In this document: positions 13,449-15,712 of the stretch, one piece after another
Numbering within the stretch: position 1 is the first letter of the stretch
How the letters are laid out: every line of letters starts with the position of its first letter
Assembly (NCBI GenBank): GCA_023441105.1
Contig: JAEZQX010000339.1
Location: 1 to 21,323, forward strand
DNA length: 21,323 nucleotides
Source of the DNA: Pseudomonadota bacterium
GTDB taxonomy: Bacteria; Pseudomonadota; Gammaproteobacteria; Burkholderiales; Burkholderiaceae
Reading direction: 5' to 3'
Notes under the pieces: model-generated
The model's input: the letters and a program-made list of their open reading frames with translations, nothing else
The model's database searches: none
Told to the model about the DNA's origin: nothing
Program-made: the position numbers and the translations under genes

Positions 13449-14663
13449 TTATGCGGCCATCGTACTCTCCGGGCGGCAGTCGCGGAAGAAGGCGCGGATC
13501 TCGGCGACCAGCGCCTCCGGCTGCTCCAGGGCGGCGAAGTGCCCGCCCCGCGGCATCGTCGACCAGCGCCGGATGTCGGGATAAACCTTCTGCGCGAGCG
13601 ACCGGGGTGGGCGCAGGATTTCGTGCGGAAACTCGGCATAGCCGGTGGGCACCTGCACCTGCTCGCCTGCCGGGATCGGCCACGGCCCGTGGGCCCGGGC
13701 GTAGTAGGGCCAGAACGACGAACCGATCGCGCCGGTGAACCAGTACAACGAGATGTTGGCGAGCAGCTCGTCGAGCGAAAAGACCGCTTCGACGTCGCCG
13801 TTGCAGTCCGACCAGGTGCGAAACTTCTCGACGATCCAGGCGGCAAGCCCGGCCGGCGAATCGGTCAGGCCGTAGGCAAGGGTCTGCGGCCTGGTGCCCT
13901 GGATTGCGATGTAGCCGCTCTCCTCCTTGAGCCAATGCTGCAGCTCGCGCCGGTAGCGCGCCTGCTCCGGATCGCGATCGTCGGCATCGGCCGTCTCGCG
14001 CCGCAACGGCATCATGTTCAGGTGGATCCCGACGACGCGCTCCGGATAGGCGTAGCCGAGGCGCGAGCTGACGAACGAGCCCCAGTCGCCGCCCTGCGCG
14101 CCGAAGCGGCCGTAGCCGAGCACGTCGGACATGAGCGAGGCGAAGCAATCGGCGATCTGCTCGACCGAGAAGCGCGGCTGCCCGGGCACGAAGGACAGCC
14201 CGTAGCCTGGCAACGACGGCGCAACCACGGTGAAGGCGTCGGCCGGGTCGCCGCCGAAGCGCGCCGGATCGGTGAGGCGGGGGATGATCTCGAGGAACTC
14301 GAACACCGATCCGGGCCAGCCGTGCGACAGCAGCAGAGGCAGCGGCGCCCGGCCATCCGGCGGAACCACGCCCTGCACATGGATGAAATGCAGGTCGATG
14401 CCCGCCAATGACACCCGATACTGCGGAAACGCGTTCAGTCGCGCTTCCTGGGCGCGCCAGTCGAAGCCCGATCCCCAGTGCGCCACCAGCCGCCGCATGA
14501 AGTCGATGTCGGAGCCCGTGTGCCACGGCTCGCCCGGCGGCTGGTCGGGCCAGCGGGTGCGCAGCAGCCGCTTCCGGAGGTCGGTCAGGTCATCGTCCGG
14601 GATCCGGAGGGCAAATGACTGGGGGACGGGCGCGCCCTTTGCAGGTGCAAATTTGTCTTTCAC
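13449..14663 (-). CDS. Epoxide hydrolase (alpha/beta hydrolase with EHN N-terminal domain)
   Basis: This 404-residue protein opens with an epoxide hydrolase N-terminal domain (IPDDDLTDLRKRLLRTRWPDQP, about residues 21-42; DIDFMRRLVAHWGSGFDWRAQE). The hydrolase core has the oxyanion motif HGWPGS at 114-119, LPGYGLSF at 151-158, the nucleophile elbow GGDWGS with Asp193, and the catalytic His near 375 in PRGGHFAALEQP. This is the architecture of microsomal-type epoxide hydrolases, which open epoxides to diols through an Asp ester. The start is uncertain: GTG at 14663 is chosen because GGAG lies 8 bases upstream and the product length fits; the longer in-frame ATG would add a non-conserved Arg/Pro-rich leader. 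Its stop lies 19 bases before the 2Fe-2S gene, making an apparent operon. Confidence 0.87.
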   Translation of the reverse strand: MKDKFAPAKGAPVPQSFALRIPDDDLTDLRKRLLRTRWPDQPPGEPWHTGSDIDFMRRLVAHWGSGFDWRAQEARLNAFPQYRVSLAGIDLHFIHVQGVVPPDGRAPLPLLLSHGWPGSVFEFLEIIPRLTDPARFGGDPADAFTVVAPSLPGYGLSFVPGQPRFSVEQIADCFASLMSDVLGYGRFGAQGGDWGSFVSSRLGYAYPERVVGIHLNMMPLRRETADADDRDPEQARYRRELQHWLKEESGYIAIQGTRPQTLAYGLTDSPAGLAAWIVEKFRTWSDCNGDVEAVFSLDELLANISLYWFTGAIGSSFWPYYARAHGPWPIPAGEQVQVPTGYAEFPHEILRPPRSLAQKVYPDIRRWSTMPRGGHFAALEQPEALVAEIRAFFRDCRPESTMAA

Positions 14664-14783
14664 GGTTAGCACTCCGGGAGCAGGATCGAGCCGGTGGGGC
14701 CGGTGCGATTCAAAGAGGTGCAGCCGCCTGGGCGGCCGGTCGATTCTGGTGCGCGGTTTAGAGTCGATACTCAACGCTCATTG

Positions 14784-14812
14784 TTGCGTCGCACCAAGCT
14801 TCTGGATACTAT
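14784..14812 (+). promoter_or_regulatory. Sigma70-like promoter of the small RNA
   Basis: TTGCGT at 14784-14789 and TACTAT at 14807-14812 are separated by exactly 17 bases. The -10 has the key T1, A2 and T6 bases and the -35 has TTG. Predicted transcription start is about 14818-14820, just before the CT-rich segment of the small RNA. No start codon follows, which supports a non-coding product. Confidence 0.6.
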
Positions 14813-14818
14813 GCATCT

Positions 14819-14881
14819 GTCTCCTCCACCTCCTCCTTTGGTGGATTAGCCCCGCGCCTAACCGCGCGGGGCTTTTTTCTT
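14819..14881 (+). ncRNA. Candidate small RNA (~60 nt) with anti-Shine-Dalgarno hairpin loop
   Basis: The segment sits alone on the plus strand between the 5' end of the epoxide hydrolase gene and the 3' end of the slipin gene, both on the minus strand. It has its own promoter (14784-14812) and intrinsic terminator (14848-14881). The 5' tail is CUCCUCC-rich. A hairpin pairs TCCACC (14825-14830) with GGTGGA (14840-14845); its loop holds CCTCCTTT at 14832-14839, identical to the 3' tail of 16S rRNA that pairs with Shine-Dalgarno sites. CCTCC occurs three times (14823, 14829, 14832). Such loops are known in regulatory RNAs that bind purine-rich ribosome sites. It resembles the betaproteobacterial toxic small RNA family I recall from Rfam, which I cannot verify here. 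An unlinked 3' fragment of a longer transcript is the alternative. Confidence 0.68.
14848..14881 (+). terminator. Strong Rho-independent terminator
   Basis: AGCCCCGCGC at 14848-14857 pairs perfectly with GCGCGGGGCT at 14864-14873 around the 6-base loop CTAACC, followed by a run of six T (14873-14878) and CTT. It is the strongest terminator in the window and points along the plus strand, where no protein gene precedes it. It also separates the small RNA from the convergent slipin gene. Confidence 0.92.
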
Positions 14882-14941: not shown

Positions 14942-15712
14942 TCAGGCGGGCGGCCGGGCGGTTTCCATCATCTTGGACAGGACCCCGGCCACATCGGTAG
15001 GAAAGGGGAAGACGATGGTCGAGCTGTTCTGGCTGCCGATCACCGCCAGCGTGCTGAGGTAGCGCAACTGCATGGCTTCCGGCCGCTGCGCCAGGATGCT
15101 GGCTGCCTCCACCAGCTTCTGCGCCGCCTGCGCCTCGCCTTCGGCGCCGATCACCTTGGCGCGCCGCTCGCGTTCCGCTTCCGCCTGGCGGGCGATCACC
15201 CGGATCATGCTCTCGTCGATATCGATGTGCTTGATCTCGACGTTGGCCACCTTGATGCCCCAGGCGTCCGTCTGCCGGTCGAGGATCTCCTGGATGTCGT
15301 TGTTGAGCTTGTCGCGCTCCGACAGCATCTCGTCCAGATCATGCTTGCCGAGCACCGATCGCAGCGTCGTCTGCGCCAGCTGGCTGGTGGCCTGGGCGAA
15401 GTTCTCCACCTGGATGACCGAGCGCTCGGGCGTCACGACCCGGAAGTAGATCACCGCATTGACCTTGACCGACACGTTGTCGCGCGAGATGACGTCCTGC
15501 GAGGGCACGTCCAGCACCAGGGTGCGCTGGTCCACACGGACCATCTGCTGGACGTAGGGGATCATCAGGATCAGCCCGGGTCCCTTGACGCCGGTGAACC
15601 TGCCGAGGGTGAACATCACGGCCCGCTCGTACTCGCGCAGGATGCGCACCGACATCGCCAGCAGGATGGCGAGCAGCACGATGATGGGAGCGAAGAAGAA
15701 GAGCGTGGTCAT
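14942..15712 (-). CDS. Slipin (stomatin-like SPFH/band 7 membrane protein)
   Basis: The 256-residue protein has one N-terminal membrane helix (about residues 4-22) and then a band 7 domain: [52 protein letters not shown], and [22 protein letters not shown] helical stretch ([26 protein letters not shown]) is likely a coiled coil for oligomer formation. The C-terminal [19 protein letters not shown] is conserved in slipins and is a known NfeD-protease cleavage region in archaeal relatives. Slipins form membrane rings that organise membrane domains and are partners of NfeD. Its ATG overlaps the NfeD stop (ATGA, 15709-15712), so translation is coupled. The ATG at 15712 follows a GGAGG-like purine stretch inside the upstream gene. 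Confidence 0.93.

Follow-up and report, generated by a model that had tools for sequence, protein, structure and literature searches.

The window, by which we mean the whole analysed stretch of 21,323 nucleotides, encodes on its plus strand a small RNA of the family RF02278 (14818..14879), and over the −35 element of its promoter lies a predicted operator of PhaR, a PHB-granule-binding repressor. We consider it probable that the gene encodes a PhaR-repressed, PHB-responsive anti-Shine-Dalgarno sRNA, where PhaR binding at this site and the purpose of the RNA are inferred from sequence. The operator suggests that the sRNA might adjust protein synthesis under surplus carbon. Neither the longer conserved element that encloses the −35 nor the probable link to PHB control was part of a preliminary description of this DNA.

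The promoter consists of a −35 element TTGCGT (14784..14789, plus strand) and a −10 element TACTAT (14807..14812, plus strand), both read directly and separated by 17 bp; a simple promoter scan missed it because TTGCGT is a weak −35. From a predicted 5' end at 14818-14819, the 62-nt RNA 14818-14879 folds as two hairpins with −32 kcal/mol and a z-score of −6.39, and none of 200 shuffles folded equally well. It starts with the single-stranded tail GUCUCCUCC (14819..14827, plus strand), likely the main pairing site. Hairpin 1 (14825..14845, plus strand), identified from the fold and from pair changes among relatives, has a 6-bp stem (14825-14830 paired with 14840-14845 in the fold of 14818-14879) and a 9-nt loop, UCCUCCUUU, at 14831-14839, and the second hairpin is an intrinsic terminator (14848..14878, plus strand) with a 10-bp stem (14848-14873) followed by a T run. 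Thus the hexamers, their spacing, the 6-bp hairpin and the terminator are all present as the preliminary description had read them. It had further proposed a stand-alone, conserved sRNA of the general design of a toxic betaproteobacterial one and an Rfam scan as a check; cmscan returned a full-length match of 14818-14879 to RF02278 (Betaproteobacteria toxic sRNA, model 1-64) with 73.7 bits at a gathering score of 50 and an E-value of 1.7e-13, the sole Rfam match above gathering score in the window. With a CU-rich unpaired 5' tail and loop and a terminator as second hairpin, the RNA shows the features of this curated family, of which it is an ordinary member. A search for named plasmid relatives gave no match.

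A gap of 167 bp holds the gene; the annotated frames on either side, both outside the sRNA unit, are an alpha/beta-hydrolase-like frame of uncertain start (13449..14774, minus strand), which has weak NCBIfam matches only, under the cut-offs, and a Band_7 (SPFH) gene (14942..15709, minus strand, Pfam PF01145). Such a position would also suit a terminator or 3' end that merely belongs to an adjacent gene, with no independent RNA, but we give this explanation next to no credence: both neighbours lie on the minus strand while promoter, RNA and T run lie on the plus strand, the RF02278 match is full-length, and the neighbours differ at other loci of the family. Among 145 loci fetched around RF02278 matches (L081-L225, about a dozen of them weak, chance matches), both window neighbours recur only at L081, a locus that coincides with L001, in agreement with the earlier view that the RNA is unrelated in function to its neighbours. 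L001 belongs to a Lautropia MAG; its Band_7 protein is 91% identical to that of the window and the same RNA, scoring 67.1 bits, adjoins the gene. The host is therefore Lautropia-like and, by this likeness, betaproteobacterial as is required of RF02278. The family is found above cut-off in nine of nine same-genus genomes, with one copy each, in 68 of 74 genomes of the family of the window, in at least 114 of 300 order-drawn genomes and in at least 3 of 274 class-drawn genomes, the counts from the larger searches being lower bounds because only part of the candidates was scored. Another 30 of the 274 class-level genomes have sub-threshold matches only (E up to 1e-5); one of them, G499, belongs to a GTDB order of five genomes, three of which match. 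Such sub-threshold, RF02278-like RNAs were noticed at L159-L165, L286 and L287, apparently outside Burkholderiales.

The invariant part of the RNA is the 5' tail GUCUCCUC, found in 65 of 65 members of an alignment (A1) hand-picked from the matches, in which columns 2-9 (GTCTCCTC) are unchanged throughout. The loop varies more: over 108 distinct type I sequences it contains CUCC in 96, CCUCC in 77 and the octamer CCUCCUUU in 50. Since some loci of this second set were chosen by a pattern containing the tail, its tail count was left unused. Pairs 8-11 were required by the placement of the 3' arm in the same set, in which pair 10 is C-G in 103 sequences, U-A in 4 and U-G in 1, and pair 12 is C-G in 68, U-G in 27, U-A in 10, A-U in 2 and unpaired in 1. 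The preliminary description had placed its emphasis on the octamer as a copy of the 16S rRNA 3' tail. The identity itself is real: the 16S genes of G006, which shares its GTDB genus with the nearest relative, and of G061 both end in GGCTGGATCACCTCCTTT, these two being the genomes, out of six searched, in which a 16S-end pattern with at most one mismatch was matched, and the other four gave no match. In the window the octamer CCTCCTTT occurs once at 0.23 expected, which by itself is unsurprising. As the conserved element, however, the octamer was rejected, being kept in fewer than half of the loops, and the part that comparison with relatives singles out is the tail.

These counts bear on the idea of a growth-limiting RNA of general action, a toxin or ribosome-site mimic copying the 16S tail. 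It accords with the loop octamer and with the family name, which goes back to toxicity in E. coli (PMC4603805), but it is hard to reconcile with a loop that carries the octamer in only 50 of 108 cases, with type II copies (18 of 113 loci, tail TCTCCTCCTCC) that are without the loop core, and with S17 of Bordetella pertussis, which is reported to have little effect on E. coli growth (PMC11722255). We regard it as very unlikely. From the earlier proposal, an action on ribosome sites is probable, whereas the mimic draws on resemblance to 16S alone; the claimed limitation of growth agrees with the slower growth reported upon over-expression of ncS27 in Burkholderia cenocepacia (PMC5688073) but not with the S17 result. 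Several type II copies (L193, L203-L222) lie 35-50 nt downstream of a small frame starting MSTLV; no Pfam match was obtained for the two of these small proteins that were tried.

The predicted PhaR operator TGCGTCGCACCA (14785..14796, plus strand) overlaps the −35 and matches exactly the sequence TGCRNYGCASMA, the PhaR consensus obtained for Bradyrhizobium by footprinting and gel shifts (PMC6201568), which is also contained in YTKNTGCRNYGCANMAR of Ralstonia eutropha (PMC12849132). It is the sole exact match in the window, and 0.34 would be expected per 21 kb. A single match over this length is unremarkable, so the weight of the argument rests on its position and on the relatives. The upstream sequences of relatives have TTGC[AG]N[CT]GCA[CG][AC]A in common, likewise over the −35. 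We counted the site in 113 loci (95 type I, 18 type II) that were selected by a sequence filter and by an upstream stretch of 120 nt or more: its strict form occurs within 250 nt upstream of 68 type I and 1 type II RNAs, its relaxed form upstream of 75 and 1. Altogether the 113 loci hold 74 strict sites, where 0.36 would be expected from the density in the rest of their DNA (8 strict sites over 316,661 bp, counting both strands), and letter shuffles gave a mean of 0.075 loci with a strict site. In 71 of the 113 loci the site is placed 16-18 bp from a −10 that keeps four or more of the six letters. Measured to the RNA, its position ranges from −22 to −240; the site is kept in front of short primary transcripts and long precursors alike.

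If PhaR acts at these promoters, the site should depend on phaR. In the order sample, which comprises one sRNA locus per genome except for two in G192 and covers 57 of 106 phaR-bearing and 28 of 43 phaR-less sRNA genomes of the 300-genome sample, the strict site occurs at 39 of 58 loci in phaR-bearing genomes and at none of 28 in phaR-less ones (relaxed, 42 and 1). With up to one mismatch within 150 nt, the counts are 53 of 58 and 2 of 28, compared with 1.6 and 0.7 in shuffles. The Fisher value of 2e-10 for this sample is not to be taken literally, because most of the 28 phaR-less loci look like one clade and independent events are few. Nine further genomes of the sample, which belong to the window's family, were excluded from the count; phaR is present in eight of them, six of which show the strict site (G001, G014, G032, G035, G060, G061; not G006 and G012), and G008, without phaR, has none. 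G001, the nearest genome, encodes phaR with 150.7 bits. At 23 of the 28 phaR-less loci (L288-L313, L156), in comparison to 2 of 58 phaR-bearing ones, we noticed a TATTAGA-type palindrome instead, a candidate for another regulator's site or a −10 context.

An alternative with some, though minor, likelihood is that the same RF02278 sRNA acts on ribosome sites while TTGC..GCA is a preferred setting for the −35 or is bound by another regulator, so that PHB is not involved. The element does contain the −35, and over 300 genomes the presence of the sRNA is independent of phaR (106 of 149 versus 97 of 151, p 0.22); the PhaR claim consequently rests on the site and not on presence. Moreover, several same-genus loci with phaR retain TTGCA and lose the rest of the element. 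Best matches at ten same-genus loci have no mismatch in three (the window, L081 and L093), one in two, two in three and three in two, and only two of the five genomes with two or three mismatches are without phaR; to judge from these sequences, the element is undergoing loss in some lineages near the window. On the other hand, the element extends past the −35 (GCA[CG][AC]A) and equals a footprint-derived PhaR consensus, it precedes all 49 phasin genes examined, and its strict form is missing at all 28 phaR-less loci of the order sample. Counting against the link again, phaR was not found in 7 of 74 genomes of the window's family; two of the seven, G007 and G008, lack the site too, but the other five retain it (L173, L129, L189 and L130 exactly, L199 in relaxed form, read by eye). 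For these five, phaR may have been on contigs that are missing. We favour PhaR as the repressor of the sRNA promoter, and the window site as its predicted operator.

The phasin genes connect this element with the known PhaR regulon. All 49 phasin genes examined among 96 family matches (30 of 30 best-scoring and 19 of 19 chosen further, 7 of the latter same-genus; frames anchored on the profile match) have a relaxed site no more than 350 nt upstream, and none of the 30 phaR genes examined, out of 67, has one. The 3' ends of phasin genes were also informative. CTCCTCC or CCTCCTC occurs within 150 nt past the stop of 19 of the 30 and 10 of the 19 genes, that is, 29 of 49 (L256-L285, L348-L366), in comparison to 17 of 305 control frames, a set which itself includes sRNA loci, and to 3 places on both strands of 177 kb of other DNA of the first 30 phasin loci. 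Folding gives double hairpins with a UGUCUCCUCC tail for the 3'UTRs of L364 (z −6.39) and L363 (z −5.20), and the elements stay below the RF02278 gathering score, with 35 bits as the best value in the 20 of 30 loci scanned. A phasin-3'UTR branch of the RF02278 family is likely, though not proved. As further observations, CU-rich anti-Shine-Dalgarno hairpins in phasin 3'UTRs precede the terminator, the 3'UTRs of L359, L363 and L364 resemble complete RF02278-like RNAs, and the phasin loci L256-L285 contain CCTCC 83 times at 196 expected and GGAGG 70 times at 184, under half of the single-base expectation.

Which mRNAs the RNA would pair with was considered for the PHB genes themselves. Phasin mRNAs were rejected as targets: their ribosome sites pair with a mean of −7.2 kcal/mol (n = 49), compared with −9.5 kcal/mol at phaR (n = 29), and because of this weaker pairing an MmgR-like repression of phasins is unsupported. 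The ribosome site GGAGAC, complementary to the sRNA tail, occurs at 13 of 29 phaR genes (loci L226-L255) and at 0 of 42 control genes; at any GGAG-n-ATG place it is found in 62 of 564, and phaR of G001 has none. The phaR mRNA may be a target, and we treat it as a lead only.

Several described systems resemble the locus. The RNAs ncS03, ncS05, ncS27 and ncS62 of B. cenocepacia are short transcripts with a double hairpin and a CU-rich tail and loop (PMC4603805, PMC5688073), and the window RNA is alike in sequence and fold; B. cenocepacia has four copies, in contrast to one above cut-off per same-genus genome. In glucose medium ncS03, ncS05 and ncS27 were up 8.0-fold, 6.9-fold and 4.3-fold; ncS03 and ncS05 were highest there, and ncS27 was higher in biofilm (9.7-fold) (PMC5688073). 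We assume that PHB accumulates in this medium. According to the same report, 55-80% of the predicted sRNA pairings fall at gene starts, an upstream motif common to three copies is mentioned with Fig. S3, and the regulator is stated as unknown (PMC5688073); PMC4603805 names no regulator either. S17 of B. pertussis has the same tail and a promoter, TTGCAT-17-TACTAT, nearly identical to TTGCGT-17-TACTAT of the window; its short form S17S arises through RNase E cleavage of a 190-nt precursor (PMC11722255), whereas in the window the 60-nt RNA follows its promoter immediately. S17 directly represses BP2158, 70 up-regulated genes with complementary ribosome sites are reported for this B. pertussis member, and a repressor of the S17 promoter is postulated there without a name (PMC11722255). 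PhaR keeps phasin genes repressed and is released from the DNA once granules form (PMC12849132, PMC12542648). At phasin promoters of R. eutropha the PhaR core TGCRNYGCANMA lies beside or over the promoter, as it does at the window sRNA; the R. eutropha targets are protein-coding with several sites each, in contrast to one site at an sRNA gene here (PMC12849132). In Sinorhizobium meliloti, PhaR represses the sRNA MmgR, as supported by a gel shift of its promoter (PMC12542648). MmgR, like the window sRNA, is short (77 nt), has a PhaR site and is tied to PHB, and may serve as an analogue only; it is alphaproteobacterial and reported to lower phasin expression, of which there is no sign here (PMC12542648, PMC9049629, PMC8401924).

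On these grounds we propose the following scheme, for which the titration of PhaR by granules, the repression at ribosome sites and the induction in glucose medium are taken from the papers on relatives. With PhaR sitting over the −35, the sRNA promoter would be silent. Under carbon surplus, granules would form and draw PhaR off, and the sRNA would be made together with the phasins. As a trans-acting RNA of about 60 nt, it would pair through its 5' tail and loop (CUCCUCC, CCUCC) with Shine-Dalgarno regions and thereby lower the translation of a set of mRNAs; genes for transport and catabolism may be damped in this way, their ribosome sites being covered.

Our literature search, in which subscription papers were thinly covered, found no publication joining RF02278 and PhaR, and in the main texts naming RF02278 that it reached, PHB and phasin are absent except for PHB in one reference title (PMC7011215). 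The PhaR operator predicted at an RF02278 promoter is new, while the RNA itself belongs to a known family. We speculate, with slightly less than even expectation, that the "toxic" double-hairpin sRNAs of Burkholderiales constitute the RNA branch of the PhaR/PHB regulon, with stand-alone copies under PhaR operators, related CU-rich hairpins in phasin 3'UTRs and a tail, UGUCUCC, that may target the phaR ribosome site. If true, such targeting would create a double-negative carbon-storage switch. A conserved PhaR operator would give RF02278 a signal in the form of PHB granules and carbon surplus, and partners in the phasins, in bacteria among which Cupriavidus is the model producer of bioplastic. 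Betaproteobacteria would then have an anti-Shine-Dalgarno sRNA under PhaR, in parallel to MmgR in rhizobia.
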